This document shows positions 2,550 through 33,960 of a stretch of 64,000 bases of DNA, piece after piece; position 1 is the first letter of the stretch, and the number at the start of each line of letters is the position of its first letter. Origin of the DNA: Amphiura filiformis (taxonomy: Eukaryota; Echinodermata; Ophiuroidea; Amphilepidida; Amphiuridae); assembly GCF_039555335.1 (NCBI RefSeq), contig NC_092640.1:38337795-38401794 (forward strand). The letters run 5' to 3'. The notes under the pieces were generated by a model. The model searched no databases. It worked only from the letters and a program-made list of their open reading frames with translations, and was not told the origin of the DNA. The translations under genes were made by a program, and so were the position numbers.

Positions 2550-2700
2550 TACGGAACAGGTTACTCACCTTGGGTAAAGGTTTAAAATCAGTCGCTACGC
2601 TATCGCGATACAATTGATTGACTTTATTGAATAAAATCGCTGTTCCAAAGGCGACTGGGTGTAAACCTTTACCTAAGGTGTCTAACCTGTAGGGTAAAAC
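2550..2700. repeat. Inverted repeat (hairpin), copy 1
   Basis: The ggtaaaggtttaaa...cagtcg arm pairs with cgactgggtgtaaaccttta. An equivalent hairpin lies at about 4505-4640. Confidence 0.65.
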
Positions 2701-3100
2701 AATGAAGAAATTAACATAACACTGAGCGAACTTGCGCAGCTGAACAATCTATCTAATCTCTTACGCAAATTAACCATATAAGTGGTTGGGGGGGAGGTGG
2801 GGAAATGTTCGGGGGGCAGTGGCGGCGACAGGCATTTTCAGGGTACACAAGGGTGGGGAGGGGGCAAAGTAAATTTCAGGGGTGGGTAGAATTAACCCAT
2901 TTTGCGCAAAATTGGAGCAAAAAGTTTCTCGTATCTCACTTTCTGGTTGTTTATTGTACCAAACGAAAACAAACGGGGTTATGTGAGTTGATTTATAATT
3001 TGGCTTCTTTAAACAAGATTGATTTGTACATCAATTTATCTTTTTAAATAGAATTCAGCATGCTGCCAAATACTGATATATAGGGCTTATTATACTGTCA

Positions 3101-3480
3101 TTGGAAGTGGTCAGGCGCCCTCTCTTTCCTCTCTCCATGCAGTATTTGGGGGCGGCTTTTGGGGGCGCCAGAAAAGAAGGGCGGCGGAAGAAGGGGCAGC
3201 AAAAAGAAGGGCGGCAAAAGAAGAAGGGGCGGCAAAAAAGAAGAAGGGCGGCAAAAAGAATTAGTAAAGAAAAAGGGCGAACAAATTTTAAATAGTATAA
3301 AAAACTTGGGAAAAATGGTACTATACATTTGTTTTAGGGCGCTAAAAGCTAACGCTTTTTTTTTTTTTTTTTTTTTTTTTGCTCTTCACTTTTTCAGACC
3401 TCCTTTTCGGGCTGTTTGAGGAAGGGACGCCAAAATTTAATTTTCTTCAGCCCCCGGGGTAGGGGTGGCCACGGTACGCC
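3101..3480. repeat. Purine-rich simple sequence and poly-T tract
   Basis: GAAGGGCGGCAAAA-like purine repeats (3165-3280) are followed by about 25 T residues (3356-3380). The Lys/Arg/Gly-rich open frames on both strands are artefacts of this composition. Confidence 0.7.
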
Positions 3481-3483
3481 ACT

Positions 3484-3485
<2 letters not shown>

Positions 3486-3537
<52 letters not shown>

Positions 3538-3541
3538 CTCT
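3486..3541. repeat. (CT)n microsatellite
   Basis: An uninterrupted CT dinucleotide run of more than 45 bases is present. Confidence 0.95.
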
Positions 3542-3869
3542 CTCATGATAATAATAATTATTATTACCGGGGTATCACTATTTGAACCAATTCGATATTA
3601 TGAGTTCTGTTAACAAAACTTCAAAGGTATTTTAGTGAAAGTGGTGCCGCAATTGGGAACTTAATCCAATTTTCCCTTCCCCTCTTCGTCTGTCACTCAT
3701 CTCCCGGTCCCTTTCTCACCCCACCCTCCCTTTCTTCTCAGTCTCTCCACACACAACTCCATGAAATACACACACACCCCTCTTTCACTCTAGGCGGGGG
3801 GCAGGGGGGGGGGGCTGACCGCCTTTGATTGAAGTTACCAACTACAATGGCAGAGACCGCTTCCCTCCT

Positions 3870-5480
3870 GTAACATTAATTCTTCCTCCTCTCCCAGTCC
3901 ATCCCCTTTCCTTATCTGCTCTCTCCCTTTCTTCTCTCTCCCACATATGGCCCCAATCCACCCACCCCGTCTCTCTCATTCCTCTCACCTCCACTCGCTC
4001 CTCTCTCCGGGAGTGAACTTACAAGTAGGCCTACGTAAACACACCCACTTCTCTGGGATTAGGTGAATGACCGCTAAGGTGCCTCCTTTGTTGGTATGCT
4101 AATTCTCCTACCGTACGTTTGATTGTTCTGGATAAAGGATATGACCGGAACCATGACTACTCCGTGCCTTCATTGTTATGTATCACGGGTACCATGGCTA
4201 CTATGTGCCTCCTTTGTTAGTATGCTAATTCTCCTTTGTTAGTTACCGTACGTTTGATTGTTCTGGATAAAGGATGTGACCGGAACCATGACTACTCGGT
4301 ACCTTCATTGTTATGCATCACGGGTACCATGGCTACTAGGTACATCCTTTGTTAATATGCTAATTCTCCTTTGTTAGATACCGTACATTTGATTGTTCTG
4401 GATAAAGGATATGACCGGAACCATGACTACTCCGTTCCTTCATTGTTAAGGGATTAGAGAGCGCAAAGCCGCTTGTTATGCTAATTATCTTCATTGTTTG
4501 TTACGGAAGAGGTTACTCACCTTAGGTAAAGGTTTAAACTCAGTCGCTACGTTATCGCGACGATTGATTGACTTTTATCGAATAAAACCGCTGTTCCAAA
4601 GGCGACTGGGTGTAAACCTTTACCTAAAGTGTCTAACTTGCGGGTAAAACAATGAAGAGAATTAGCATAACACTGAGCGGGCTTGCGCAGTTGAGCAATC
4701 TCTCTAATCCCTTACGCAAACTAACCATGGTGTGGTGGGGAGGTAGTGGATGGGGGGGCAGTGGCGGCGGCAGGCATTTTCGGGGGTACAAGGGTGGGGA
4801 GGGGCGAAGTGAATTTCAGGGTGGTGAATCAACCCATTTTGCGCAAAATTGGAGCAAACGGTCTTTTTTATCTCAATTTCTGGTTCTTTATTGTGGGTTT
4901 ATGTGAGTTGATTTATAACTTGGCTTCTTTAAACAAGATTTGTACATCAATTTATCTTTTAAATACAATTAAGCATGCTGCCAAATACCGATAGATATAC
5001 TATGTAGGGTTAGTTATCTTTTAAGTGGTCAAACGCTCATCATAATACATGTAATATTATAATCACTATTTTAACTCAATTTCTGTTTGTGTATTGTACC
5101 AAACGAAAACCGAAGAGATTATGTGAGTTGATTTATAACTTGGCTTCTTTAACAAAGATTTGCTCATTAATTTATCTTTTTAAATAGAATTCAGCAGAGG
5201 GCTTATTATACTGTCATTGGAAGTGGTCAGGCGCCCTCTCTCATAATAATAATAATTACTATTACTATTTGAACCAACTCGATATTATTAGCTCAGTTAA
5301 TAAAACTTCAAGGGTCTTTTGGTGAAAGTGGTGCCGCTATCCAATTTTTCCTTCCCCTCTTCGCCTGTCCCTCATCTCCCGGTCCCTTTCTCACCCCACC
5401 CTCCCTTTCTTCTCTCTCCACACACAACTCCATGAAACACACACATACACCCTCTTTCCTCTAGGCTGAGGGGGGAGGCT
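3870..5480. repeat. Second copy of a roughly 1.95-kb tandem duplication
   Basis: The block from the CT-rich stretch through minisatellite, hairpin and the G-rich gggcagtggcggcgg segment repeats that at about 1920-3470 with a shift near 1.95 kb. Parts recur a third time at 5080-5560, including gctgaccgcctttga and ggtgaaagtggtgccgc. No gene is seen. Confidence 0.7.
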
Positions 5481-5579
5481 GACCGCCTTTGACTGAAGTT
5501 ACCAACTACAATGGCAGAGTCCGCAGAGGGGCAAAGTGAATTTCAGGAGGGGGGATCAACCCATTTGGCGGGGGGCTGA

Positions 5580-5699
5580 CCAAACCACCGTCAGTCCGAA
5601 TTTTATGGTCCGGGTTAGAGTTAGGTTTAGGGTTAGGTTTAGCGTTAGTGTTAGGGTTAGGGTTAGAAACCCTAAAAATTCGGACTGACAGTGGTTTGG
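5580..5699. repeat. 120-bp inverted-repeat element enclosing telomere-like hexamers
   Basis: Ends are ccaaaccaccgtcagtccga and its near-perfect inverted copy (tcggactgacagtggtttgg). Between them is degenerate ttaggg/gttagg repeat (about 5610-5668). Confidence 0.75.
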
Positions 5700-6480
5700 A
5701 CTGACGGTGTGTAGGCCTACCCAAAAACTTAAGCTTTGAGGAACATTTGAGAAAATGCGGACATCTGTGGAGATGAGAGGAGAGAGAGGAAAGGCGAAGA
5801 AAAGAAATCGAGGACAGGATAGGAGCAGGGCGATTATTTTTCGTACATCATAATTAGGCCTATATATTTTGTAACGCATGTGGTAAAATCAGTTGATTTG
5901 TCAGAGTTTTGCTTTATTCCGTGTTTGATTATCAAAAACGGAAATAATTTTCAAATATGATGTACGAAAAAATCATCGCGAGCGGGGGAGGAAAGCCCCG
6001 GCCGGAGATGAGAGAAGGGGAAAAGGGTGGAATTAGATTTAGATGACCAATTTCATCAAAAGACCCTATTTTATATTTTAAAAAAACTTGCCCTGATTCC
6101 ATCAATAAAATAATTATTATGAGCAATGAGGACGCTTGACCAATTCAAACACCATGAGTGTCTATCAAACCTTGAAACCTGACAGATATAGTGGACAGCA
6201 CCTACCCAGCTCTATAATAGAGGCCTAGCATGTGACGTATCATCCCGTAAATATGGCGGACTACTCAAATGCATTCAACAAAAGCATGATTGCAATCTAC
6301 CGTGACAGTTCACTCACACACATAACCCTGCACTACCATGACTACGATCAAATAGGTTGATGACAACATTTGATTGAATGGACTGCACTCCGCCATAACT
6401 ACGGTGAAGGACACCGGCTCAAATCCTTTGTTTGGAGCCAATCGATAATTTCATGCAGGGCCTCTATTGATGTATGAGGC
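5700..6480. other. Interior of the 6.1-kb element, no gene seen
   Basis: Purine-rich sequence followed by AT-rich unique-looking DNA. No extended frame, splice-framed exon or RNA gene could be supported. Confidence 0.4.
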
Positions 6481-6743
6481 ACAACTTTCAGGGTCACATT
6501 TATAAAGACTTAACGGTGGGATTTATTGATTGATATCAGCCTGTATTCGTGGTGCGTCACGCACGTGAATCTACTTCAAATTTTACAGCTGATTGACATT
6601 TAACCGTAAGTCTATTCATCAATATCTACGGTACATATGCATGCAGGAGCCGCAACAACGCTATTGGCTTATTTTCCGACGAACTGAGACACAAAGACAT
6701 AAACAAAGAGAACGTAACAGTTGATTGCAGAAAGAATAACTAC

Positions 6744-6901
6744 CTTATGGTACGTCATGGGGTACGTCAAAAGCAATTGCTTTGGATATGTGTGTGTCCA
6801 AACCAAATCAAAAACGGTGCTACTTTTGTTAAAATTAGGTACATGTTCATGCCGATATCCGAGACGATTGAAAATCTTCATAAGAAAGGTGAAATGGTTG
6901 A
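6744..6901 (-). CDS. TTLL-like protein, exon 2 of gene copy B (intact)
   Basis: This 158-nt exon is read on the minus strand between an acceptor (ggtaccag at 6902-6909) and a donor (gtagtt at 6738-6743). It encodes HFTFLMKIFNRLGY followed by FDLVWTHTYP. That pattern matches the start of the catalytic region in TTLL-15-like tubulin-tyrosine-ligase-family proteins, which typically have a hydrophobic F-x-R-L-G-Y helix and then a D-x-x-W-x-H-x-Y-P strand. The second copy at 28601-30072 encodes nearly the same residues but is split by a transposon. Exon start is phase 1 and exon end is phase 0. Downstream exons of this copy would lie left of the window. The family call rests on remembered motifs and on the neighbouring exons of copy A. 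Confidence 0.6.
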
Positions 6902-6960
6902 CTGGTACCTTTGAACGAGAGTGACAAAAAGTAAAGAATATATTAGTATTCTAAAATTGA

Positions 6961-8494
6961 CGACCCAAGAAGACCGTAAGTCCACTTGGCCCCTCAACAT
7001 GTATACACTAAAGTTGCGTATAGTTTCCTATAGTTTGGTAATGTTTTATACATGTTCAGGGGCCAAAACAAATCTTTCACAACCTTTCATGATATTTTCA
7101 CCCTGGAACATGTACTTGCAATCCTCGCCATCCCCCCCCCCCACCCTGAAGCGGTGTTTCTCACTGATGCAGTACCCTATGGTTCAGGCCTATACGGTAT
7201 ACACTATCGCTAGGCGTAGTACCGATGTATAAGATCTTATACCTCCGAATCACAGTCCCATAGAGATAATGCTTAATTTGCCTGCTAGTAAAGTCTGAGC
7301 AAGAAAGCAGAATCATTGTGCTATCTACTGAGGATAGCCTTGCGATTAATATGTTAAAAGTTCACCAAGACTTAGGCACCAGAAGCAAATTTATTCTATC
7401 TTTGGATCAATCAACAAATAATCAAAATTAATGCTACATTTATATTGGTCAATACGGGCTAAGATCCATATGTTATCACAATTAACAATAGTCAAGTAAT
7501 TGATTTCATAAATAATAAGTTCGACCACGCATCGATGGTCGCTCGAAAGATCGAGCTAATATGTTTGTATTGCCATCAGTTTACAGTCAAGAGTTAAGCA
7601 CACAGAATCATGGAAAACATGACCACAATGCCATAATTATAAGTGTTGAATTACATGGGTTATTAGTGAAATCATAAGCGTTGCATACTGTCCCCGCTCC
7701 GCGATGCGCGAATGGTCATCGCGTCGCACTTGCGCGACGCAGGTGGGGGTGTCTGAGATGGCATGTGCCCCCTCAGAATATCATCAAAATCAATGGCCGA
7801 ATGAAAATATTTAGTGGGCCATTTTACACTATTTATAATGTGTACAATTTTAGTTTGAAAAAGTTGGAAATGTTTGAAAATGAAGGCCCAAATAAAAAGT
7901 CACTTTGTAGCCTATTTTTACACTATTATTAAAATAGTTAAAACAAAAGGTGTAAGTAAATTGACTGTAGTCATTGTAGTTTGTGCGTAGCGCAGATTTG
8001 TTTTGAAAGAAGATCCATGTCTAAAGGTCCGTTTCTTCAAAACATAGATTAAGGATAGGCGTGTCTATGGGGAATATGCCCCTCTGAGAGTTTTAAAAAA
8101 CGAGGGAAATGAAGGCTCAATAAAAGCCATTTTGTGGACTACTGTTAGACTATTGTTATGGCGCGGTTTTTCTCTCATTGATCCGTGCTCAATATTAATC
8201 CTTGTATTTGGCGATCAGCTACTGTAGGAGAAACACCGCACTGAGCGAACGCAATCAATGACCTATGTTGTGATGCTTTGTTGATATTTGAAATGCGGAA
8301 TTAAATAATATATTGTGAAGTCACATCTTGTCTTCTGTCTATTTCACTTCGTGTATGCAGCGAGTTATTCCCCGTGAAACTTTGAGATCCATTGACCATG
8401 TATCTGGTATGATTTCTAAAACCAAATAAATGGTTAGTGGATTTCGTATAAGAAGCCGGCTTTACTTTGAAGTAAAGAAACCGGCTTAACCTTG
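6961..8494. other. Non-coding AT-rich stretch with a short GC-rich island and a hairpin
   Basis: No supported gene. Around 7685-7750 there is a GC-rich patch (gcgatgcgcgaatggtcatcgcg). At about 8452-8487 agccggctttactttgaagtaaag folds back onto the following aaaccggctt. Confidence 0.4.
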
Positions 8495-9520
8495 TTGCAT
8501 CTGATCATGGGGTTTGAGTTGAGCGCAGATTTATACGCCCGCGTTATTGACTTACGTAATCGCGGCAACGGTGCCGCTTTAGGAATTACATAAGGTACAT
8601 TTTCTAAAATTTTGAAGAGACGTCGAGAGACCGGAACTACTACACTTAGACCAAGGTCAGGTCGGCCCCGAAAGACAACCGCCAGGGAAGACCGATCTCT
8701 CCTGAGACTTTACCACAATGGCCGCACGAAGCCTGCATCTCGGCTACGAACAGAATGGCTGAGGTCCATAAACGCGCCTGTTACCAGGAACTTGTGAATA
8801 ATAGACTGGCAAGTGCAGTTTTTAGCGCAAAATGACCAATGAGAAAGCCGATACTTTTGCAAAGACATCGGCATGCGCGCTTGCTTTGGTCACAGAGACA
8901 TAGGAATTTGACAGTAGGTCACTGGCGGAATGTGATCTTCAGTGACGAGGCCCGGTTCTTCCTCTACAGAGAAGATGGTCGATTTAAGGTCCAAAACAGG
9001 TTAGTCAAGCCCTGCTTGAGGATTGTATTCAGCCTAGAGTCCAGGGGGATGGTGGTGGAATTACAGTATGGGGATCATTTCACAGCAGGTCGAAATCACA
9101 CATCCACATGCTAGAAGGACATATGAACCAGATACCTGCATGTTCTTGATACAGTTATGCTTCCGTTTGCAAGAAGAGACTTCGGGAACAGTTTTGTGAT
9201 CCAAGATGACAACACCACGGTGCTCAGAGCCCTACGCGTAAGGAGATTCCTTGAAAATGAGAATATAAAACACCTGGACTGGTCGGCTTTGAGCCCGGAT
9301 ATGAACCATATAGAGAACTTATGGGCAGAAGTATCCCGCAGGATAGGTAACATGGACAACCAACCAATCAACCTGCAGGAAAATAGACACCTATATTCTA
9401 CAAGGAACCTTGGCAAAACTGGTCGAGGAATGTCACGTTGCGTACATGGCCTTGAACTGACAAGGGGTGGACACACCAAATATTGAGTTGTGTTTCTCAA
9501 GCAAGAGACTTATCTGAACT
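8495..9520 (+). pseudogene. Degraded Tc1/mariner-family transposase
   Basis: Three plus-strand frames in order (8612-8797, 8839-9114, 9157-9486) match successive parts of a Tc1-like transposase. The first has the N-terminal paired-like region with the GRPRKTT hinge. The second has HWRNVIFSDEARF with the first catalytic Asp. The third has VIQDDN with the second Asp and LSPDMNHIENLW with the final Glu, the DDE pattern of the family. Frameshifts and stops separate the pieces, so no intact enzyme is encoded. In active members the enzyme cuts and pastes its own element at TA sites. Terminal repeats could not be identified. Confidence 0.85.
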
Positions 9521-9724
9521 TGTCACAGTGAGAGTTTAACTTTTTGTTTAAACAATAAAGTTTGCTAGTGTCTTTAAACTCATTTTGTGATACAATGAGA
9601 CCACCAAAAAGTGTTGCGATTGTGTGATCATTCCATTATAATGCGCTTCCTCGGGTAATTCTTTGTTTAATTGACAAACGGTGTGATGTGAATATCAAAG
9701 GACATTTGTATCTTTCAATTAAAT

Positions 9725-10124
9725 TCAACTGAACACTACTCCAGAACAATATGATTGAAAACTGCATTTGATACAAAAAAAATATTCTAAACTTTTGTCC
9801 ATGACTGTAATAGCAGAGGTGGCTCCAATTATTAAAGTGTCCTTATAATTAGCTTCTACATAGAATATTTCCCGGTAGTATTTTGAGTTCCTCTTCTCCG
9901 TGTCGGTTATAGGGCTTAAATCAGGGGTGGGCAATCTAAACCTCGCGGGCCACATACGACCAGGCGAAGAATTGTGTACGGCCCGCAAGACTTTTGGAGA
10001 TACAGGAAAAGTAACAAACATGCTTTTTAGTGAAAGTGTAGTGTAACAGTAGCCCTGAACGATTTTATGTTGCGACTTAATCGCAAAAATTACTTGTATT
10101 TCAATGTCGAAAATAGTGCTGTAA
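9725..10124. other. TTLL intron 1 sequence of copy B, left side of the 8.2-kb insertion
   Basis: It matches 30525-30579 plus 33414-33660, the intron 1 of copy A. It includes a caggggtgggcaa...gcgggccacat stretch from 9921, which resembles the end of a hAT-type repeat. The match continues at 18371 after the inserted element. Confidence 0.65.
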
Positions 10125-10377
10125 TAGTCCGGTGGCAGAGCAAGGTTAGGTGGTTTTGCCAGTTAAAGTAGCTTCCATTACTGGTTATTACTCTTTGAGT
10201 GGTACAAAATAAGATTTTGGGATGTAAAATGGTAACCCTTGGGCAATTAGAAATATTCAAGATGGCCGCTATGGATAATAAACAAAAGCTCGGTTATTCA
10301 CTAGTGGTACCAAAAAGTATTTTGTGTAAATTATTTGCCTTTTGGATGCTTTAAATATAAACTATATTTAGTTTTAA

Positions 10378-11593
10378 ACAGTCAGCTACCTGCACAACAG
10401 ATTCTTTTTGTTCTGCAAGGCTCACTCAGTCATTTAATGAGGCAATACAAACGATCGAAATTGGTGTTGAAATGAGCAAAATTTTGAGTTACACCTTTTC
10501 AGTGTAAAAAATTTTTCTCAGCCAAATGAAAAGCAATAATTTTCATTTTTTCAGTAAATGGCTGGAAAAACTATAATGCTTGATACTGATTTTTTTAAAA
10601 TCCTGGTGTTAAACTTAGGCCTGAAATTCAGTCATTTAGTGTAAGATATTCGATTTTATAGGCTTCAGCTCGGGCCGCGAGCTTTTTCTTGATCAACCTT
10701 TTAGCTTTTCAAAGTAATATAGTTCGCTAATGAAGGATTTTCCCAACTTTCTAAAGCACATCACCGTGAGCTATATATCATAGTTTTGTCAGAATTTCCG
10801 TTTTGATTTCACCATCTTTCACTGTCGGCTGACAAAATTTCTAAATCAACACGTGAAATCTAAAGGCTAGTACTAGCATTGTGGATCGATATCCCTGGGT
10901 TTAATAGGAATACCGGCATGGCTATAGTGTTGCCAGAACTTCAATATAGCAAAGAAATTCCCAGACCTATAGCGCTCCTACTGATCATGTTTAACCAGAA
11001 CACCCAATTGGGGATTTAATCGCTGGTCGGGCAATTTGCTTTCAATGAAAAATTGACCTGGATAACAACAAAGGAAATATCGACTATTTATGCTGGTTGC
11101 TCTCGAGATAAAAGTACTCACCATTGCCTACTTTTACTTAGTTTGACATTTTCGGATCATGAATGGAAAAAGGGTAAAACAAAAACGGGAATTCTGACAA
11201 AACTATAACATATAGACCCACACGATGTGCTTTACAGAGGTGGGAAATATCTTTCTTTAGCAAACTATGTTAGTTTGAGACGCTAAAACATGAATTCCGT
11301 AAAAAGCTCGCAGGCGAATTCAAGGCCTATAAAAATCAAAAAAATATCACACTAAAAGACACAATTTGATGCTTAATTTTAACACCAAAAAAAAAAAAAA
11401 AAATGTATATCCAAGCACCAAGTTTTAACTGACATTACTGAAGAAAAAAAAATATTGCTTTATATTTGACCGAGAAAATTAATTACAAAGAAAAAAGGTG
11501 TATCTCTGAATTGTGCTGATTTTTACATGTATCGATCGACTTTTAGCGCGACTAAGCATTTCTAAAGAATTGGTTGTCCAGGCGGCAGACTGT
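10378..11593. repeat. Fold-back element, about 1.2 kb
   Basis: The two halves are inverted copies: acagtcagctacctg near 10378 against caggcggcagactgt ending at 11593, with internal pairing of the taatatagttcgct and gttttgtcagaatt blocks. A related element with different ends lies at 36098-36852. It is non-coding. Confidence 0.7.
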
Positions 11594-11699
11594 AAATGTG
11601 ACACTCTCACAATTCAAGAAATTGTGTAACGTCATAAGCCAGACTTTATTTATTAAAATAATTAATGTACACCCAAGAATTAAGCAGATCCAGTTTGAC

Positions 11700-13146
11700 A
11701 TTTTACTTCTGTACAATCGCATAAAAATTCCAAGATGGCCACCACCGAAATGAAAGGTAGAATATAACACATTTTGGAAGACTTTTGCAGGGGAGTGAGT
11801 TGAGTGACAGCTCAGGGTTAACACCTACCCATTTGGTGATATCTGAACTAATATCTGTATCAAAATTATCAGCCCAACTTGTACCAATCCTTCCAGAGCT
11901 GAGCGTCTTCAATTCCTTGACGACTAATATCAACAGCGCCTGCAACTGCAGCCAAAATTCTTGAAATGTAGGACCAATCATTATAAGAACATGTAACCCG
12001 GTAGTCGAACAGATGGTTTATAACCATCTTTGAATCTCTGAGTAAGACACCCAATGACATTTGAAGATCATTTGCTCGCTTTTGCACAAGACTTGTAACG
12101 ATGTTTCCAATCAGTAAAGCTGACAAGGATTTCTTCAACTTTGGCGAGGAAATTTTGTAGCGTGTCAGATTCTAATTATGCAACCAGATAGGGATATTGT
12201 AGTGTGACATATCAATGCGAATGTCTTTGCACTCTCGTACTACTTGTTTGGCTACTCTTCGGATATTACTGCCTATAACAGTTTCCCACTTTCTTTATAA
12301 CTTCACCTTTCACCTTTCACTTGCGTTAAAGTTGCAACGGAATACAATAATACTAGAATAACTTTTTGTTTGGAGTTCTTCATTGAGTCACCTACACTCA
12401 GCACGAGTTAATGTGATTTCCAAATGTGTGAAGCATTCCTGATACAATTCAGCAGGATTCCAAATGCAACTCTTAACACCAGATAGGACATCTACAGCAT
12501 GTTTTAGGACTTCATCAGTTGTATCTTCTTCAGATGCTGCAACATCACAGCGTGTATTGCTTTTGTCACTAGAAAACTAGTCATAGTTTGTTTGTTTGTT
12601 TTATTTGTTCTTTAACCTGGGACACTCAATCAATTGAAAACACAATTAATCATCTGTTCTTCCTTAAGGCACAGGGTCTCTGTAATGCCTAGTTCCCATC
12701 GCGTGAAGATCACTCACAGAGATTTCTAAACGTCCTCTGATTTCATTTGCCCAGCTATCACTACGATCCGCGCATTTTGCTATCAGATACTCTTTTTAAG
12801 TTTTGCCATCACGTCTTTTGAAGATCAAAACTTCCCCACATTAGTGTTCCTGGAAGTGAAAGTGTGGAGAAGATCAACGCAGTCGTTTGGCGGACTGGGT
12901 AGAATCATCTTCTGCATAATTGCCAATATTTGTTTTGCTTGTATACTTCACACAATTATAGTTATTCTTATAAAATGTATCACTAGCCAGGCTCCTTTCC
13001 AGGCTGACATACAAATCATCTTCATAATCTTGCTTGCATTGATGATTGTTTGTATACGTGCTGGACCATTTGTTCAGAGAGCAACGATGAGCATTATCAC
13101 ATTCTTTCCCGTATCGAAATTTGAAGATCAATTGAAATAAAAACAT
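11700..13146 (-). pseudogene. N-terminal half of an Academ-like transposon protein, broken
   Basis: Minus-strand fragments run in order. 13146-12874 includes YTSKTNIGNY and KRLR. About 12800-12680 has KCADRSD..W..EIRGRL with SDLHA and HY, a pattern I associate with the N-terminal Cys/His region of this repetitive family. 12138-11869 gives KKSLSALLIGNIVTSLV and VTCSYNDW. A frame near 11875-11840 gives ADNFDTDISS. Stops and frame changes separate them. The C-terminal half is missing here: the next sequence on this strand is a fold-back and the element's end. A related C-terminal half is present in the nested 3.6-kb element. Confidence 0.55.
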
Positions 13147-13149
13147 ACT

Positions 13150-14121
13150 GTTTCAATTTTTAAAATGACTGAAGAAAATATGCTGTCTTTTTTCTGCACA
13201 CGTTGTTGGAATGTTTTCTCGTTGTATAATATAGGCCAGTTTGTCATTTTCAAAACCCAACCGTAGTCCATGCATGCTTGTAACGTCGTTTGCAGATATC
13301 GTAGCATGATCCAAAAAGGTATTAAAATGTACAAAAAAGATATTGCATCTATCCATCTAAAAGAACTACTTAGATAAAAAATTATTGTTTTGTTTAAAAA
13401 GACATGGGCTCTTTTCTAATTGTAAAGATGCGTTTTGTGCGCAGTATGCGTAGAGACTACGAGGAAAATGGACTCAACGGGAGAACCTGTTTGCAATAGC
13501 CTGTTTTTGTCACGTCAAAAGATTTTTTCTAGCTATATCTTTGTGCTTATACCGATAACTTTGACAGATTCATGTGATGTTTAAACACTAGTGCATGTAA
13601 TTGGAAGAATTCACTCCATAAATCGTCCAAATGGTTGAAATGTCCCATTTAATCAATGTAGGCTATTACTCAAATGACTCCCTTGGCATATTTATATAGT
13701 AATTATTGAATCTTCATACTCCTTGAAAGTGTATTTTCAAAGAATATCATACAATTATACCTACAATTCTCAGGTATTCGTATTGAAGGACATAATACCA
13801 AGATGATAATATATACACATGTGATGATCTTTAATTCAATCGAATTGGTGAATTACCTTGCTAAAATGTTCTGAAAGACAGATAAAACGTTATGCAAATG
13901 TTTAAGAACTCACGGGACGACATCATGGCAATTTGGGATCATTGAAGCGTGTCAATTTATAATCCACGTGCATATGTTGCATATTGAGCCAAAACTACCA
14001 ATAATGCGCACTAAAACGTTATAATTATTTGTTTTGTCACTAAAAAAAACATTTGAATGCTATTTCAGTGTTACGTTTCAGCCATTTTGAATATCTTGGA
14101 TTTCCCAAGGGTGACAATTTA
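13150..14121. other. Interior of the 8.2-kb element, no gene seen
   Basis: AT-rich sequence. From about 14035 it becomes one unit of the subterminal repeat that continues at 17733. No open frame matches a known protein. Confidence 0.4.
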
Positions 14122-14257
14122 ACATAGACGGGGGAATAAACGGTTTGACCCCAAAAAAATTGCAACAAAAGGTTTTTTAACTGATTTGGGTACTATGGGA
14201 CCTCAGGAACAACAGAAAAAAAGTCCTAAAAAATCGGGCTACCGGAAAGTGGTTTTC

Positions 14258-14880
14258 CAAGATGGCGTCCAAAATGGCCGCCAAAAAATCTTAAAATTAA
14301 TAAAATTCATTTATTTTTCACCACAGATTTGAAATTTGATTTTATTATGATCAACAAAAATATTACAGAGTGATCAGATAGCCTAGAAATCCAAGATGGT
14401 GTCCAAAATGGCCGCCAAAAAATCTTAAAATTAATACAATTCATTTATTTTTCACCACAGAGTTGGAATTCTGGTGTCTAAACCCATGTTTTGGGGTCAA
14501 TGATTTTATTATGATCAACAAAAATATTGCAGAGTGATCACATAACCTAGAAATCCAAGATGGCGACCAAAATGGCCGCCAAAACTCTTAAAATACCTTA
14601 TAATTTACTTATTTTTTCACCCATGAGTTGAAATTTTGGTGTCTACACCCATATTTTTGGGGTCAAGGATTCCTCTTTGACTAACAAAAATATTTCAGAT
14701 TAATCAGATAAGCTATAAATCCAATATGGCTGCCTAAAATCTGGTATTCAGGTGATAGTTTTTAACGCAATAATGATCTTTTGAAAGTTGACATTTTAGT
14801 ATCTACACCCATGTTTGGAGGTCCAACCAAAAAATTAAATATAGCATCCAATATGGTCGCCAAAATTGTTTTATACTGTA
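14258..14880. repeat. Subterminal tandem repeats of the 3.6-kb element
   Basis: Units of about 130-160 bp each contain a variant of ccaagatggcgtccaaaatg followed by an AT-rich block (tttatttttcacc, atcaacaaaaatatt). Matching units in reverse orientation lie at 17205-17580. Confidence 0.75.
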
Positions 14881-15183
14881 TATATTACCTGTCGTTTGAG
14901 GTTGGTAGTGACGTGTCTCACTATGATTGGTTGGAAGTGAGAAAAACCTGAAAATGACTTGAACTGTATTATATTATGTACTTTCCAGTGGGAAAGTTAC
15001 CAGCATGGAGTCGAAAAAAATGCAGTGCGATGGTTGGTTGGTTGGTTGATATCCCTGCCATCCCTATGCAGTACTGAGACAAGTCTCCTAGTTAAGCTGA
15101 AATAGATTGCCCAATTTCAGCAATGATAATAATTATAAAAGTCAATATTGGTGAGACACAATAGGCATTTAACTATTTGATTG

Positions 15184-17147
15184 CTGTATGGGTTGTCACA
15201 TGAGTTAGTTTGGCAGGGTCCACATCCAGCATGACATGGTAGTCCGTATCTTCGGCAGTTGCAGCGAGGTGGACAGTTTTTGCATTTTGCAATTACAGTG
15301 GATCATTTTGAGTAGGTTATCAGGGGCGATCGGAACCATCTGATTGCTGTCTATTTTCCACCCCAGTCCAAGACATCCATACAATTATTAGTCCCCATAT
15401 TAGTCCTCTGAGTTTTATGGTAGTAAACTCTGAGGCAGTGAAATGTGGTGGAGGATGCAGTAGGAGGCAAACGTTCAGGAGTGACAAACGATTTTGCAGA
15501 TGTTATCTTCTTGACAAATATGTTGTAGCGCAGGGTTGCAAGTGAACTCTCCCTATTGCTGCCAAACATAACAGCCATAGCTTTGCTACCAAAATCCTCA
15601 ATGATTTGACTGGTTTCGGAGAATGAAGATATTTGCACATTGCTTGACTATGGGATCGCCTTTCACAAGCTTTTGGAAGGCTGATTTCTTCACAATACCA
15701 AAAACCCTGGAGGTTGAATCACACCCGGTAAATGCGTGGATGAAGAGGAGCTGGGAACACAAACCTAGGATTGCCTTTAGTCGGATGATGTCATACACTT
15801 TAATATCTTCAGTTTTGTCAGACCGGTAGTATGTTTTGTCAGACCGGTAGTATAGTTCTCTGGCATGTGTATCTGCATAGTAAAGAGCCAGGATTAATAG
15901 ATCAGTGTCTTCCCCAATCAAAGTTGTAGATTGTCGATGGGAGCTTTCTACCACCGCTTTAGCAATTTCTACATCTGCATCGTCTGATGCATTGATCACA
16001 TTGCATGCCCTATTCTTCAGTTCATCTGTAATGAGATCAATTAGTCCTTGCTTGTTGCTAGCTCTTGACAAGAAGTCATTTTTTTCCCTGAAAATTTCGT
16101 CTCTGCTGTGAAGTGAATAACTGGATGGACACGTCGTTGGTGTGTATTGTCTTTGATGGACGGACCTCCACCATACCCATCAAAGACCACAGTTGCCAAT
16201 CCATAATGGCGAACAGTGAAATCTGCATATGACTGTGCAATCAACCCATAACTGTCTCCAGTTTTCCATGGTACTCGATGCAACAAGGAACCGCCATCAA
16301 GGACGTAATGATCAGTTTTTGGATAAGACTCTTTGAAGACTTCGTAATCACCTGAAGTCTTGTTTGGTCTCACGCTCACTCATCTCTTGAATGTAGAGAT
16401 ATACCGATTTCAAGTAGTTGTAATGTCCAGCTGCAGCAAAAATTGGAAGGCAGTCAGCAACATCACTTAGGTGCATGGACCAACACCCGGTGCGATCTGT
16501 CATGATCAGAGCTCTGGCCACTATCAACATCTTCTTGTAATTAAGCCACAGTTTACTGGTCTTTGACCTAGCTTGTAGTTCAGACTTTCTTTTGTCAAGT
16601 TCTAGCTTGATCTTGCCCAATATATCAGATGTCTTAATACTCTCCAATGTTGTTTCCCCTACCATCAATGAAGAGTACACATCTTCAGATTCATCTATCA
16701 ATGTCTGAAATTGGGGATTATCATGCAGGACATCTGATACAATCATTTGGTTTAGACACTTGTCTACCAGCAGGTGGCCCCGGAATGCTCTTTGGACAGA
16801 CTTTCCAGTGAACATATGCACAACAGCATTTTCACATACACAGATTCTAGGATCTCTTTAAGTCCTGTCCCTTGCATTAGAGTACCTATTGCTCCAAGTA
16901 AATTCATGAATGTATGAAAACAACCCAGCATCAAGACGATCCTTTTCAATGGGCTGTTCTCCAGTGCATCATGGATGATCTCAGCAGCCTTCCAAAATAG
17001 GGGCTGGTCAAATGTGACTATTGGTGACAGGTTATATTTCATTGCCCAACTGCAAAGGAACTCCAATGTGGAAAGAATACAGGTCTTATCCCCTGAATAC
17101 AGGTCTATCATAGGCAAAAACACAACCGAAGACTGACCTATATTCTA
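15184..17147 (-). pseudogene. C-terminal half of Academ-like transposon protein with XPG/PIN-like nuclease and Cys-rich tail
   Basis: Five overlapping minus-strand frames alternate between two frames (17147-16764, 16821-16348, 16379-16041, 16071-15598, 15638-15351), which shows at least four frameshifts. In order they give VVFLPMIDLYSGDK with FDQPLFWKA, then FTGKSVQRAFRGHL, then DGGSLLHRVPW, then GEDTDLLILALYYA and FTGCDSTSRVFGI. The last pair resembles the acidic and G-C-D motifs of FEN/XPG-type PIN nucleases. After 15351 a further shift opens a Cys-rich tail down to about 15184, with CKNCPPRCNCRRYG, LPCHAGCGPC and a final SCDN, resembling a tesmin-like CXC or Cys8 finger. The family is common as unnamed repeated proteins in invertebrate genomes. 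This copy is dead. Confidence 0.7.
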
Positions 17148-17732
17148 CTATTAATTATGAAGCTGAAACATTTGTATCATATCAACTTTCCCGGTCAACT
17201 TTATGATATCCAAAATGGCTGCCTTGATGGAAATATATTGAATAAATCATTTATTAATAAAATTAATGATTCCATTTTATTTGTTTTGTATTATTTTTTT
17301 TAATTGTTTAATATAAATAAAACAGTTTTATAAAACATTACAAGTATAATGTATAGGCCTAGCTTCTGTTGTTTTCAAAAAATTGCAATTTTGGCCAAAT
17401 ATATCAGAAATGGCAACCATTTTGAAATTCATGATGGATGCTATCACTTGGTGAAAGTTTAACGGTCTCATTGGATGTGTTGACCTCACAAACATAGGGA
17501 TAGACACCAAAATTATAGCTCTATGACAAGAAATAAGTGATTTATAGCAATTTTAAGGGTATCGGCGGCCATTTTGGACGCCATCTTTAAAAAAACACTT
17601 TCCGGAAGCCCGATTTTTTAGGACTTTTTTTCTGTTGTTCTAGAGGTCCAGTAGGACTAAAATCCGTTGAAAAACCTTTTGTTGCAATTTTTTTGACGTA
17701 ACCCCTTATTTTCATATATTCCCCGTCTAACA

Positions 17733-18370
17733 CCCTTAGAATCTTATTCTGCACCACTCAAAGATTATTCATCAGCAAAAAAAAAAAAACTTTAACTGTC
17801 CAAAACACTAATTATTTTGGTATGATACCTTTTGTCACTAAAACACCATTTCAATGCTATTTCAGAGTTACGTGTTGGTCATTTTGAATATCTCGGATTG
17901 CCCAAGGGTGACAATTTTACACCTCCCAGAATCTTATTCTACACCACTCAAAGATCATTCATCGGCAAACAAACAAACTTTAACTGTCCAAAACACTAAT
18001 TATTTGGTATGATAAATTATGTCACTAAAACACCATTTCAATGCTATTTCAGAGGCCATTTTGCATATCTCGGATTGCCCAAGGGTGACAATTTTACACC
18101 TCCTAGAATCTTATCTACACCACTCAAAGATCATTGATCAGCAAAAAAAACAAAATTTAGCTACCAAAAACACTAAAGCTATTTGGTATTATACCCTTTG
18201 TCACTAAAACACCATCTTGAATATCTCGGATTGCCCAAGGGTGACGATTTTACATCCCACAGAATCTTTTTCTACACCACTCAAAGATCAATAATCAGCA
18301 AAAACAAAACAAAACCCTTTAACTGCCAAAACCATCTAACCCCAAAAATATGCTGTTTGCAGCCGGACTA
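17733..18370. repeat. Subterminal satellite and right terminal repeat of the 8.2-kb element
   Basis: Units of about 155-177 bp contain cccaagggtgacaatttta, agaatcttattct, caccactcaaagatcat and a poly-A-containing spacer. Unit starts are near 17901, 18078 and 18234. One more unit lies left of the nested element (14035-14121). Confidence 0.75.
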
Positions 18371-18671
18371 TAAATGAAAAGGAATATATGAATCATAATG
18401 CGCATACTCTGAATTTCACTGCAATGCATTGACAAATAATATATGTGCATTGTTGACGTACTGTAAAATCTGTGGTTAAACCTGTGTGACATGACACAGG
18501 GGATTATTTCTATGTATACATCAGTATTTTTTCAAAGGTTCCCATGGATACTGGGATCATGAGGCATAAAGCTAACTATTATCGTTAATAATGATGATTC
18601 AGTGACCCGTGTATGAATTATCTAGCTAAGAATTAACACGACTAAGGTCATTACAGATAGACACACAGGAT
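18371..18671. other. TTLL intron 1 sequence of copy B, right side of the 8.2-kb insertion
   Basis: Closely matches 33654-33950, sharing aaatgaaaaggaatatatga, atccatgggaac-type and cagtgacccgt blocks. Part of the segmental duplication. Confidence 0.65.
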
Positions 18672-18929
18672 ATATGTGATGCGATCAAGCAAAATCAGTC
18701 GGAACTCGGAGATATTGATTTTGAGATATAGCCAAAGAAAGGAAATATTTGCTTTTGTTTCCTATTGTTTTGGAAACTCTTTAATTGCTCATATCTTGGA
18801 ACTGGTTGTTCAATTTCAATGGAGTTTTCTGCAAAATACAGCTTTGTAAATGCTTTTTACTATCCTATAAGAAACTGAAAATTTTATATTTCCGAGTTCC
18901 GACTGATTTTGCTTGATCGCATCACATAT
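18672..18929. repeat. MITE with about 38-bp perfect terminal inverted repeats
   Basis: Starts atatgtgatgcgatcaagc and ends in the exact inverse gcttgatcgcatcacatat. The repeats continue inward through aaaatcagtcggaactcgga. It is non-coding. Confidence 0.85.
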
Positions 18930-19993
18930 GATTATTAAATTTTGTTACGATATGTACGGAATTGCTCATCAGTGCCATTGTTAATATTTTATTCTTAACC
19001 TTTGAATAGCACAGATAATACTCCGGCTTTAAATCACATGCATTTAGCCAAATGTTCGCGCCGCAGCGGCAATACACTCTTCTAGCAGCAGCCATTATGG
19101 ACAAAAACTGTGTCACGTTACACAACACTGTCACTTAGTTAAAAATCTGCTTTACATGGTAATTGTGTAATTACATAAAACTAAAGTAATTAAAGTTCAT
19201 ATATAAGTTTGTTCTATTTAGCAGAATCTGCTGTTTTAATTTTTGGAATTGTTAAAATTGCTACCACTAGTGTTATAACGATGAAGATTAATGCATTTAA
19301 AATTCCTGGAATCAGCCCTTTGTTACAAGTATAAATGTAGACCTAGGTAGCACACATTTTTCAATTCAGCTTTCAACATGAAAATTCTCGAGTATTTCCT
19401 AGTATGCCTTTTTTAAAGACAGTTCTTGCTTACATAAACATGTTACTGTGTCATCTTCTTTTTTTCCTGCCACTGGTACCATGTAATTTGACGCTAATTT
19501 ACCCCCCAATTTTTACCAGATAGTCGCACAATCAATAGTTGGTGTCTGTCATGTTTACTTTTCAACAACGGCTCCCCTAAACAAATGTTGCTATACCATT
19601 ATGCAGTTATGTCTACAGCAGAATTCACCACGACATTTCCAGCATCTTAAACCCCGTTAAATCAAGATAAAACTCACTGAAAACTGATTAACTATATGTT
19701 TCCAAACCATTTACTTGAGTGATACAATCACAATTATATTGACAAGTTTGACATTAGCAACAATGAGTTGTACCATCAACAAACCATTATTTACCACAAC
19801 AATGCTACATAACAATATGCAGATTATTGTTCTCATTTGGGAAACAAAGGCCTCACACAGTATTGTTACTGTGCATCCATCCATGGTTAACTAGCTTGAG
19901 TTAAACATTTTCAACTCCATTTTGGGCAGTCACAACACCATATTTGTGAGGGCTCGACAACAAGCTTCCCACAATCATATTTAGATAACCATA
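18930..19993. other. AT-rich intron sequence of TTLL copy B
   Basis: No exon found. At 19034-19062 gccaaatgttcgcgccgcag matches the sequence just downstream of exon 1 in copy A (35530-35549), so this marks an old intron junction. A stretch near 19605-19690 is a diverged copy of the repeat at 52935-53030. Confidence 0.4.
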
Positions 19994-20294
19994 CGCTGGC
20001 GAAGTTACGTAATTAATCGGATTAATTACCATAGCAATAGGTGAAAACAATTTTGAACATACCGCGCTGCACTACAAGCAGGTTACACTCATCACCTGTG
20101 TATGTCTGCAATCATATATTGAATACAATACTGGTCTTTTCAAAGATACTAATCTTACAGGTGCAAGTGATCAGCATGATATGGTTCAATGCAGAGGTGC
20201 CGCGTGAACGTATCAGTGCAGCGCGGTTTATTCAAAAATTGTTTTCACCTATTGCTATGGTAGTTAATCCGATTATTACGTAACTTCGCCAGCG
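19994..20294. repeat. MITE, 301 bp, TA target duplication
   Basis: cgctggcgaagttacgtaat at the left end is inverted at the right end (20294), and pairing continues for about 80 bp through caataggtgaaaacaatttt. TA flanks both sides. Confidence 0.8.
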
Positions 20295-20696
20295 TATAGA
20301 AAGCAAGAATTGAAGTTTATTTAGAGCTTCTATGACGGAAATCGATCACACGATGGCGCCCCTTCGAAGTTCGAGCTCTCACGAGTCGGCTGTTAAGCAC
20401 AATTTGCCATTGAAATTAAATTGGTCGACTGTCATGAAATTTTGGAAGACACTGTTCAGAAAAATAGTTCGACAACAGCTTTCCCGTGGCATTTTTTACT
20501 TCGACTATTAGTATGTTAAGGGTGAATATTATTTATATTTCTCATGTGAGTCTCTATGGCTAATATTGGGTGAAGGGTTTTCCTGCCAGCTCACAAATTG
20601 GTCTATTGCCTATACCTACAGTACAGTGAGTGATCGAGGGGTCAATCATCAATTACAGCGCTGTGTGTGCACTGTATAAGGAAAATGGACAGTACC

Positions 20697-21088
20697 CAGC
20701 AAACACAAAAACGTTTTTAAAATGTTTTAAACATGTTTTAATAATTGGATTTGGGTTTAGATAAAAACGTTTTAATAACATTAAAAGGTCGCGAAAACGT
20801 TTTAAAACGTTTGGTATGAAAACACACTGCAACAATATTTTTAAAATGTTTTCAAAATGTTATTGTAAAATATTTTTTACAAACATTTTTGCCAAATATT
20901 TTGTCAACACTTAAATAACATTATTTTAGAATATTTGCAGTAGGTTATCAACTAATGTTTTTGAATGCTATGAAAACGTTTTATAGCATTTATATGTCCT
21001 TAAAATAACCCGACATTTAAACGTATTCTGACAACCTTTCTAACCTTTCGCGAATGAGGTCGAAAACGTTTTGTGTTTGATGGGTAGT
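20697..21088. repeat. AT-rich inverted-repeat element (same family as 1-403)
   Basis: Begins cccagcaaacacaaaaacg and ends gtgtttgatggg. The interior consists of AAAACGTTTT/AAAACATTTT words. Confidence 0.75.
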
Positions 21089-21128
21089 TGCATAATGCAC
21101 CACCTTAATACACGTACGAAAAACCAAC

Positions 21129-21323
21129 CTTTTGTCCTGGGTCTATGACTAATACTGGCATTGTAGAAGGCTCTTTACACTGTACGTAAATTGACTCTCT
21201 AGTGGCGGCATAACAGCCAACTCGAACATCACTGATGTACGTCGAAGGCAACAGAAACACAATCGTAGTACATAGTAACAATTCAATAAAAATAAACATC
21301 TTCAAGACGCGAATGCACGTCAT
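21129..21323 (-). CDS. Putative exon 1 of TTLL-like gene copy B (signal anchor)
   Basis: From ATG at 21321-21323 the frame reads a basic start (MTCIRVLK), a strongly hydrophobic helix (FIELLLCTTIVFLL) and a luminal-looking stretch ending VLVIDPGQK at a gttggt donor (21123-21128). The paralogous exon at 35559-35762 differs by few residues and a short indel, so the frame is conserved between duplicates. A membrane anchor at the N-terminus fits TTLL-15-like proteins. The donor phase (0) does not match the phase 1 acceptor of the exon 2 identified here, so a different donor or a missed exon is needed. Confidence 0.45.
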
Positions 21324-21369
21324 TTTGACTATATAGCTACCCACAGCAGCGTCCGCTAAAATCCAAGTG

Positions 21370-22145
21370 TTTCTAGAACGGCTCTTTACACTCTATGTGA
21401 ACTGACTCTCTAGTGGCGGCGAACAATACTGATCATGCCGATGTACATGAAAGGCAACAGAAACACAATCGTAGCGCATAGCCAGCAAACACAAAACGTT
21501 TTCGACATCATTCGCAAAAGGTTATAAAAGTTTGTCAGAAAACGTTTAAAAATGTCGGGTTATATAAAGGGTATATTAAGAGTATAAAACGTTTTCGTAA
21601 CCTTAAAAAACATTTTTTGATAATCTACTGCTCAGCAAACAAAAATGTTTTACAGAAAACGTTACAATGTCGGGTTATATAAAGGGTATAAAAACTTTTT
21701 AATAACATTCCAAAAACATTCTTGAAAACTTGATACAAAACATTCTAAACAGAATGTTATTTTGGAGTTGAAAAAATATTTTGCGAAAAATGTTTGCCAA
21801 AAATATTTTCAATAATGTTTTTCTGGGTTCAAACATTTTAACATAATGTTATTTAAGTATTGGCACAATATTTGGCAAAAATGTTTGTAAAAATAGTTAA
21901 CAATAACATTTTTTGAAAACATTTAAAAATATTGTTGTAATGTGTTTTCATACAAACCGTTTTAAAACGTTATCGTGACCTTTATATAACCCGACATTTT
22001 AATGTTATTAAAACGTTTTTACCTAAACCAAAAGCCAAAATATAACTTATTTAAAACGTTTTTAAAACGGTTTTGTGTTTGCTGGGATAGTAACAATTCA
22101 ATAAAAAAAATAAACAACTTCAAGACGTGCATGCACTTTATTTTG
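21370..22145 (-). pseudogene. Extra partial copy of TTLL exon 1, broken by an insertion
   Basis: Sequence at 21370-21480 and 22087-22145 matches exon 1 and its 5' flank, including gactctctagtggcggc and gtagtaacaattcaataaa-like words. It lacks codons and is interrupted at its middle by the 605-bp repeat at 21482-22086. Confidence 0.6.
21482..22086. repeat. AT-rich inverted-repeat element inserted in an exon 1 copy
   Basis: Begins ccagcaaacacaaaacg and ends gtgtttgctggg. ATAG (or TA) is repeated on both sides, and the intact exon 1 copies show the empty site (acatagtaacaattc). Confidence 0.8.
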
Positions 22146-22594
22146 ACTATATAGCTACACAGCGTCCGCAAAAATCCAAAAGTGTTTCATGAACGGCTTT
22201 AGAATGACATAAATTTTAATGCTACTTTATTGCACGTGCTAAGGAACCTTTTTGAAATAGCTAGTAAAACTGAAGCATCCTATATGTATAAAAGAATATA
22301 TGAATATTAACTGCACATCATAATATATAACGATGTCTGATACCCAATCGTGGTATGGTTGATTTCGTTTAGGAGGCAGAGTATTGTATTTTAATTTTAT
22401 ATACGCCAATATATAAACACCAGAAGTGAATGCTTGGTGGAACTAGTCGGCGTAGTGCTAAAGCTACAGACAACTCTTAGCGTACGGCAAGCAGAGACAT
22501 TGTAATCAGTGGAACATGAATTGCGCGCGTACATGTATTAGCATTTTAGTGTTAAAACAGAACAACAGAGAAAACAAAACCAAAGGCGTGTTGT

Positions 22595-25500
22595 CTAGTT
22601 GCACCAATAAGGGTCAGAAGCACATTTTGCACGAAACCACGCCCTGGTGAGTCGGTTGTTTGGCGACAGTTGCGAATCCTGTTCGGCATTGTATGACGTA
22701 GCCTCCTCCGTTGCCTGTCAAGAAAAAGTATCCAACAGATTAAAACAGTATTTATCCGAATTTAGTTGCTCCTTTGCATCTATTTAAAATATTTTTACAG
22801 TTTAAGGTTGACTTATACAGACATCTTGAAAACGCCCACTGATCACAAGAATGTCACATCGTTTAACGTGCAGAGTGTGACTACAAATGTACAATTCATA
22901 CAAAAAGTGGCAAGCTTTTGGCAGAGTAAGTGATAGCTGATATGCCCTTTATTAAAAACGATGAACAGTATAAAGCCCCGAAAGCTGATCCAATCATTGT
23001 TAGCTACGTGTGTCCAGGTAGGATTGTCACTTAAGACTGAGCCTTGTGGAACTCCTGATAATAGTAGTGACCACTAGGAGTGAGTACCACTGACGATAAC
23101 ACATTGCGCACGTCCCTCTGTAAAATCTTGTATCTAATTGATTATTTCCCTCTTGGAACGACGGAGATGCAAGTGTAATTAAAGGCGGGAGATCAAGAAC
23201 CGAGGGCGCTGGCGCATCAGATCGTTGTGGACCATACATGGTCTGCAACACACACTTCCTTATAGTCATTACTGGTTTTTCGTCTGCTGATGCATGCAGA
23301 TGAAAAGTGGCAATAAAATACCCACCATTTCTTCTGGATACACCCGTCTCATACTTTGTCGATTGATGTGTTCAGCATATGATAGTTTTATCATATATAT
23401 TGCCTCATTCGACATACAATGTGTACAAATGGAACATTCATGTAAGAAAAAAAGAAAGAAAGAAAGAAAATAAACACTAGAGAAAACACACAAAACCAGA
23501 ATTTAAAAATGCTTTGCACAATTTATATTATTAAGCAATAAATAGATTTGAATGATTTGATGTTACTACTTTTGGTGGTGAAAATATTGTTACGTTGTAA
23601 TTGTTACGTGTTGTTGGGAACGTGTTCGTTTTAGCTTGTCCATTTTTATGTTTGTGTGCGAAAACACACTGGCAGGTGTGTGCGTAATATACATACGCGT
23701 CTTGACTTTAAAATTTAATCAGTAAAAGCACACAATAGAGTAAATTTACCTCTTCGTTACATCCGTTACACTTTGACGATACGCAAATGGGTATGTGGAT
23801 ATTTATGTCAGAATCTCTAATGCTTCTTAACAAACTGAAAAGACAATCAACCCGTTAATTAAAACAAACAAAATGAGATACAATTGCTTAATTGGAGCAG
23901 AATAACTTGGCTGCTACAATGTCTCAAACAAACAAATATATAACATGTTTTTCACCAAAGAAGATTGCTTAATTTTTTGCTCTAGGATAGGGTTTCAGAT
24001 GAAATAAATCGCAGCTTATCACTTTTTCTTAGAGTTTTATAAATCTGAGCATATATTTTGAATTACCTGCTATTAGTGCCGTGTTTCCTAACATCGGTTA
24101 ATAAAGCAACATTGAAACAATTGAATGCTGCATGCTGTGTAAATGCACAGCGTCCGTTCGGCGGTATTAAATTTGGAGACATATTCGCCTGTGAATAGAA
24201 AAGTATTATTAATATCATTAAAACGGGAAATAATCTATATTTGCTACAATAGTTTATAGATATTGTTATCATACATCATATTAATATTCAGCAGCTTTTG
24301 CCAATTCATTGGACAATCGCAAACAAGGATGACCTTTTTCGTTACAACCTTATCCCCATGGGCAAGGTAATAAAACTGATAGTAATGGTTTATATCGATA
24401 ACATAAGGTAACTATTTTACCCTTGGTTCTATCAGGTCAAATATGGGCATTATGGCCAATATTTATTAATATTGCAAGGCACCTATAGGAAAAAACAGCC
24501 GGATGGTGTCCAAATTTGGCTAGAATGTGCCTTACTCACTATCGAGTGAGTTTGATATATTTATGAATGAACTGTAGTATGAATGGCAGCACGCCGTCAT
24601 CCACATCCACATTCACTACGAAACAGCGAAATGCTTGGTTGAAATTACATCAGGTACCTTTGTCGGTTTTTTTTTTAATGTTTTCATTTTTGGCATTTAT
24701 TATGAAGATAACATAATTATTCAAATCAATATTAATTGTGATATTTTGGCCTAAATACATTTGTTTAGCAAGATACCTCTTTCGAAAGGAGTACATACGT
24801 GCAATTGGCCTATAACCTTGAGAGTGTGTTTACGTAATAATTTTTTGGTCAAAATCATGATTTTTAAAAATTATTTTCTCCAAACCTGAGCATATTTAAT
24901 TATATACATCGCAGTTGCACGCATTCGTCATTTTTATTCATTCTATATAATACCTCTAAGTCAGCAATGTGGCTGTAATGATGTTTAAAAGTTTCCCTAA
25001 TTCCAGTGTTGACACCGACCTTAATTTACCGTTAGAATACGAACATTTCCTGCTCTTAAGAAAAGTATATCTGCAAACAATTTTACGGAATGTTCTTTTT
25101 CCAACCAACTTACAACACATTATTGTGCAATGCTGGCAGATTGTATACGATAAACTAATTGTACAAATGGAATCAAACTAAACAAAAGTTTATTTTGCAA
25201 AATATTAAAGAAAATATTGAACTTACCTCAATGAGATGCACTCTTAGGTTTTCATCTATAAGGAAATCCCATCTCATGATTTCAAAATTCCTCCCACTGT
25301 GGATTAAAAGCACCAATACACATGACAATAAGTATCAAACTTGACGCCTGTTATCAGGAACAGTATGTGTAGCTCAGTGGTCGAGGTCTGAGGTTCACAG
25401 GTAGGTGCATGGTTCTTATCCCCCTGTATATCGGTTAATTTGATCTCATTCACTGGTTTGCTCTAGCTCATAGTAACAGTAGAATATCTGGCTAGAAACC

Positions 25501-33413: not shown

Positions 33414-33960
33414 GAGTTCCTCTTCTACGCGTTGGTTATAGGCCCTAAATCAGGGGTGGGCAATTTAAACCCCGCGGGTCACATACGGCGCGCCACGGCG
33501 ACGAATTTTGTGCGGCCCGCAAGTCTTTTGAAGAGAACGGGAAAGTCCTAAACATGCTGTAGTGTAAGGTGTAGGGTAAAGCAGCCTTGTACGATTTTAT
33601 GTTGTAACTTAATCGCAAAATTTACTTGTATTTCAATGTCAAAAATAGTACTACTGTAAATGAAAAGGAATATATGAATAGGGACCAATTTCACTGCAAA
33701 CCATTGACAAATGATAGGTGTATTGTGGACATGGTTGACGTACTATAGAATCTGTGGTCTAATCTGTCTGACAAGACACAGGTTGTGTTTTCTATTTATA
33801 CATCAGTATTTTTTTCAAAGGTTTCCATGGATACTGGGTTCATTAGGAAAAACTAATAATTATCTTTGTAGTTTTTAATAATGGTGATCTAGTGACCCGT
33901 ATATGAATCATCTACCTAAAAATTGTGATTTAGTTCATTACTGGTGGACAAATTCGTGAT
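33414..33960. other. Intron 1 sequence of TTLL copy A (right of LINE)
   Basis: Matches 9889-10124 followed directly by 18371-18660. It is the undisturbed version of the site of the 8.2-kb insertion. Contains the caggggtgggcaa hAT-like end at 33455. Confidence 0.65.

Follow-up and report, generated by a model that had tools for sequence, protein, structure and literature searches.

Inverted repeats are a feature of the Academ superfamily of DNA transposons, and the nuclease of its AcademX lineage is of the XPG type. AcademX, a lineage credited to Kojima 2020, is described as producing target duplications of 3 or 4 bp and AcademH ones of 9 or 10 bp, a difference that seems to be connected with their nuclease and helicase (PMC10045372). 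For curated bivalve Academ elements the mean length is 5565 bp (PMC10294476). A literature search combining Academ, XPG and transposase found no paper. Here we describe a locus within a 64,000-nucleotide stretch of Amphiura filiformis DNA, the whole of which is referred to as the window. We read this locus as two inactive DNA transposons of the cut-and-paste type, one nested in the other and most likely of the AcademX lineage, a reading to which we assign a probability of roughly two in three.

Ends, duplications and pre-insertion sites of the nested elements

The outer element measures 8246 bp with the inner element in place and 4638 bp once the inner element and one ACA copy are subtracted. 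It is delimited by the following features.

10125..18370, no strand assigned: outer DNA transposon, with inverted repeats TAGTCCGG...CCGGACTA, flanking TAA and an empty-site homologue at 33414-33950
10122..10124, no strand assigned: TAA target duplication of the outer element, left
18371..18373, no strand assigned: TAA target duplication of the outer element, right
10125..10274, plus strand: left terminal inverted repeat of the outer element, about 150 bp, by comparison with the reverse complement of the right end
18212..18370, minus strand: right terminal inverted repeat of the outer element, running on into its subterminal repeat array
17733..18332, plus strand: subterminal tandem repeat of the outer element, period about 177 bp, with a left array remnant at 14032-14124
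33414..33950, plus strand: homologous empty site of the outer element, within the duplicated block

The inverted repeats are imperfect, with 121 of 148 aligned bases identical (gap columns excluded), and by blastn positions 10144-10265 at the left end match 18341-18212 at the right. When the element was excised in silico and its flanks were joined with a single TAA, the product aligned to 33414-33950 with 435 of 556 columns identical and 45 being gap columns. A run of 26 identical bases crosses the junction, and the nearest gap, three columns wide, lies five bases to the left of the TAA. This empty-site argument would stand even if the flank were a dispersed repeat. The end pattern TAGTCCGGNGGC, with up to two mismatches allowed, occurs nine times in the window compared with a mean of 3.4 in shuffled sequence (none of 100 shuffles reached nine), and with zero or one mismatch it occurs just at the two element ends.

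The inner element lies inside the subterminal repeat of the outer one.

14125..17729, no strand assigned: inner DNA transposon, 3605 bp, with inverted repeats TAGACGGGG...CCCCGTCTA and flanking ACA, inside the subterminal repeat of the outer element
14122..14124, no strand assigned: ACA target duplication of the inner element, left
17730..17732, no strand assigned: ACA target duplication of the inner element, right
14125..14345, plus strand: left terminal inverted repeat of the inner element, continuing into 164-bp subterminal repeats at 14337-14730
17500..17729, minus strand: right terminal inverted repeat of the inner element

Its inverted repeats are identical at 182 of 218 aligned bases (gap columns excluded). 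Joining the flanks with one ACA yields a normal unit of the outer repeat array; the resulting junction resembles the units at 17905-17945 and 18085-18120, and the adjacent array agrees with the joined sequence in 340 of 397 columns. The end pattern TAGACGGGGNAA was found seven times in the window against a shuffle mean of 9.7, and with zero or one mismatch just at the two ends. The first-pass annotation had proposed that one DNA transposon is nested in another and that both have base-exact ends and 3-bp duplications, namely an outer one with exact ends, a TAA duplication and an empty site near 33654, and an inner one at 14125-17729 with an ACA duplication in the outer satellite, whose removal restores a repeat unit. 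The inverted repeats and both pre-insertion sites agree with these claims.

The 3-bp duplication of PIF/Harbinger elements is typically TWA, a pattern that the outer TAA fits and the inner ACA does not. The outer element could on this count be a PIF/Harbinger element unrelated to the inner one, and its protein remains are too degraded for classification. However, Pfam scans of three outer pieces showed no Harbinger-type domain, and no Harbinger-type DDE domain appeared among eight short, decayed pieces (five inner, three outer); neither the subterminal array nor the end TAGTCCGG is typical of Harbinger elements. We regard a Harbinger origin as highly improbable and retain AcademX for the outer element.

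The outer element also holds a foldback of about 1.1 kb (10408-11559) related to a short element at 36094-36856. The latter has perfect 22-bp inverted repeats (36094-36115 and 36835-36856), and the match to the outer copy stops short of them; within the window, only this foldback part recurs, at 36 kb. On the plus strand at about 8749-8907, a weak match to the helix-turn-helix of Tc3-type transposases (HTH_Tnp_Tc3_2, E 6.1e-5, short of the curated threshold) is probably a Tc1/mariner remnant; a still weaker HTH_32 match precedes it immediately upstream in a different frame. A repeat of about 780 bp occurs as two inverted copies at 44059-44843 and 52982-53757, with translated segments 80-98% identical, and adjoins a predicted tRNA-Thr at 53791. 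Direct repeats of about 1.1 kb at 1906-3082 and 3919-4997 are 84% identical and contain shorter repeats.

A probable duplicated block and the inferred order of insertion

The empty site belongs to a set of five colinear matches that relate 6.7-18.7 kb to 28.6-34.0 kb: 6717-6837 with 28574-28694, 6836-6958 with 30007-30127, 9827-9889 with 30512-30579, 9885-10120 with 33414-33652, and 18374-18663 with 33660-33950. A sixth match in line with these, 21118-21420 with 35548-35855, falls in a repeat-rich stretch that holds other matches. The simplest reading of this colinearity would be a duplicated block, with copy 1 carrying the outer element and copy 2 lacking it. Copy 2 has an insertion of its own, a 1312-bp element (28695-30006) with base-exact limits, TA on both sides and inverted repeats of about 170 bp including the TA that are 95.9% identical; this insertion is absent from copy 1 near 6836, which adds support for a duplicated block. 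Both empty-site flank copies (9922-9955 and about 33451-33484) contain CAGGGGTGGGCAA followed by GCGGGCC or GCGGGTC, an arrangement that we take to be reminiscent of hAT-type element ends.

The insertion site had been annotated as a duplicated TTLL intron, a label that did not find confirmation. Pfam scans of part of the window's frames, covering 6001-10001, 18501-21502, 20001-30001 and 29001-39001 on the plus strand and 1-10001 and 24001-34001 on the minus strand, revealed no TTL domain (threshold E<=0.01, or <=0.1 for one scan). A peptide common to 6700-6836 and 28558-28693 had no match in the PDB, and the similarity between these two segments is much the same in all six frames, so that the shared peptide need not be coding. 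"Duplicated block" is a safer term for the site.

Together, the empty site and the restored repeat unit point to an order of events in which a stretch of host DNA would first have been duplicated, the outer element would then have inserted into copy 1 with duplication of TAA, leaving the empty copy 2 to display the site, and the inner element would last have inserted into the outer subterminal repeat with duplication of ACA. Precise excision of the outer element from copy 2 could also account for the empty site, though less simply than insertion into copy 1. Judging from the ends, the inverted and subterminal repeats would serve as binding sites for a transposase, which would then cut both ends; joining to the target would proceed through 3-base staggered cuts, whose repair would leave the 3-bp duplications.

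Protein remains and the nuclease-like region

Neither element contains a long open frame, the longest stop-to-stop frame in either being 193 aa. Coding remains are present in both.

16348..17144, minus strand: inner element, remains of the transposase middle (IVTFDQPLFWKA; RTGCWSMHL; GHYNYLKS), in two frames, 16764-17144 and 16348-16857
15598..16350, minus strand: inner element, candidate XPG/FEN-like nuclease region, with one frameshift near 16087
15150..15600, minus strand: inner element, C-terminal remains with a cysteine-rich stretch (CNCRRYGLPCHAGCGPCQTNSC)
11830..13150, minus strand: outer element, putative N-terminal transposase remains, from three-frame reading and open frames, with many frame changes and stops

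The minus-strand frames of the inner element follow one another as 17144-16764, 16857-16348, 16379-16041, 16179-15598 and 15647-15351, after which comes the cysteine-rich stretch at about 15263-15197, and they may be read as one decayed, frameshifted gene. A 50-aa piece with the cysteine-rich stretch had no Pfam match. Judged by similar animal proteins, the inner protein seemingly lacks its N-terminal and a central part. The pieces scattered over 13150-11830 in the outer element are putatively assigned to an N-terminal portion of a protein of this kind; judged by related proteins, the outer element presumably retains the N-terminal half at most. Given the 193-aa limit, the several frame changes in the inner element and this half at most in the outer, a functional protein is unlikely to be encoded by either copy today.

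The first-pass annotation had placed both proteins in one family, a claim that could not be demonstrated within the window. The inner protein pieces had no match to the outer element at E<=0.01, and tblastx between the two returned short pieces only, none above 25 bits; a shared family is plausible. The two sets of remains do not overlap, and the family assignment of the outer protein is therefore tentative. The AcademX filing is weaker for the outer element than for the inner. The sole match of the inner protein pieces, a weak one, at E<=0.01 lies outside both elements on the minus strand at 19417-19509, where 32 aa are 47% identical (E 0.005) to the inner minus-strand frame 15208-15384.

Non-overlapping parts and the lack of an intact frame (193 aa at the longest) would also be expected if both elements were non-autonomous, carrying captured pieces of anonymous repeated genes and moved by an unrelated transposase encoded elsewhere. 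However, the inner coding remains lie between the subterminal repeats, in order and on one strand, with frame changes such as a transposase gene decaying in place would show. Capture is distinctly unlikely on this evidence, and we continue with the reading of the remains as the elements' own transposases.

The annotated XPG/PIN-like nuclease was recovered in one respect. From VLDGGSLL through VVFDGYGGGPS, DDADVEIA and IGEDTDLLI to FTGCDSTS, the inner region holds seven acids whose order and approximate spacing follow those of a FEN/XPG active site, with spacings of 39, 68, 24 and 63 residues compared with 53, 72, 21 and 51 in Methanocaldococcus jannaschii FEN-1. Such an acid set arose in 12 of 20,000 shuffles of the region and not at all in the reversed region, figures to be read with the motif classes having been picked post hoc, after the sequence had been seen, and with the FEN/XPG acid positions mapped onto M. 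jannaschii FEN-1. The ordered acids support, short of proof, a FEN/XPG-like nuclease region among the inner remains.

The archaeal FEN profile, Pfam, PDB sequences and AlphaFold yielded nothing usable in favour of this part of the claim. A local hhalign comparison with the archaeal FEN profile was not significant, its score being equalled or exceeded by 13 of 300 shuffles, and it aligned a segment other than the catalytic one; the global comparison scored 1.9. This profile comprised M. jannaschii FEN-1 and 22 proteins from 34 loci, the other 12 having been excluded by a length and motif filter; it is narrow (Neff 1.85), and the result is thus a weak negative. Pfam gave no XPG or PIN family match to the region, with sub-threshold matches to unrelated families only, PDB sequences gave one chance-level match, and AlphaFold, run on a 160-aa piece with no alignment, gave no usable model (mean pLDDT 37.9). 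PHROGs gave the region one weak match, to an HTH protein family (E 0.019). Matches to Pfam WsaF_N, Glyco_hydro_8, DUF7624 and LANA1_DNA-bd, all below cut-offs, and weak ones to PHROGs 27355 (E 0.069) and 6463 (E 0.019) were rejected as chance.

No inner piece scanned had an acceptable match in Pfam, NCBIfam or PHROGs, and the outer protein remains had none in these libraries or in viral contigs. Viral contigs queried with five pieces, four from the inner element and one from the outer, gave no confirmed relative (19, 22 and 1 stretches fitted the pattern in three of these searches, with none confirmed), nor did two protein-motif patterns and one inverted-repeat pattern in viral contigs, one motif pattern in genome contigs, or the nuclease-like region in phages and plasmids. 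As described, the collections searched comprise viral, bacterial and archaeal sequences, and the misses accordingly say little.

With no acceptable family-library match for any piece scanned (Pfam, NCBIfam, PHROGs), the elements might be assigned to a separate, undescribed superfamily whose transposase has an XPG/FEN-like nuclease and makes 3-bp duplications, merely resembling AcademX. We consider this unlikely; it is also unneeded, as the published description of AcademX accommodates both the length of the duplications and the type of nuclease (PMC10045372). That a FEN/XPG-like flap nuclease of some unrecognised non-Academ superfamily helps to cut the ends and sets the 3-bp stagger strikes us as more doubtful still. 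AcademX remains the preferred filing.

Comparison with Academ elements and FEN/XPG nucleases

If this filing is right, the locus would add two families of AcademX type whose ends are known to the base, and for one of the two a homologous empty site as well. As the first-pass annotation held, such genes probably tend to be catalogued as anonymous repeated genes, and exact ends would allow copies to be collected and the proteins to be named correctly. The nested pair is ordinary in kind with unusually clean ends, and the picture of DNA transposition would stay unchanged; the point of interest is the role of an XPG-type nuclease within a transposase.

Placed beside the mean of the bivalve Academ elements, the elements here are 4638 bp (outer alone) and 3605 bp (inner) long. 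AcademH, the other lineage of the same superfamily, is described as helicase-encoding with 9-10 bp duplications (PMC10045372), whereas the duplications here are 3 bp in both elements and Pfam found no helicase domain in the eight pieces scanned. FEN/XPG nucleases, represented by M. jannaschii FEN-1 (1a76), differ from the inner protein in that the latter lies in a transposon and has no significant sequence or profile similarity to them, and resemble it in seven acidic positions that share their order and are similarly spaced. Pfam, NCBIfam and PHROGs yielded no Academ reference sequence or profile. Both copies here are decayed and are likened to AcademX by description rather than by Academ sequence, so that the annotated AcademX claim stands as the best fit, short of proof, in duplication length and, at the motif level, in nuclease type. 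It is on these two grounds that we infer both elements to be, most likely, new members of this known group: they have inverted repeats, 3-bp duplications, seen in one copy of each, within the 3-4 bp given for AcademX and, in the inner element, the nuclease-type acid set.
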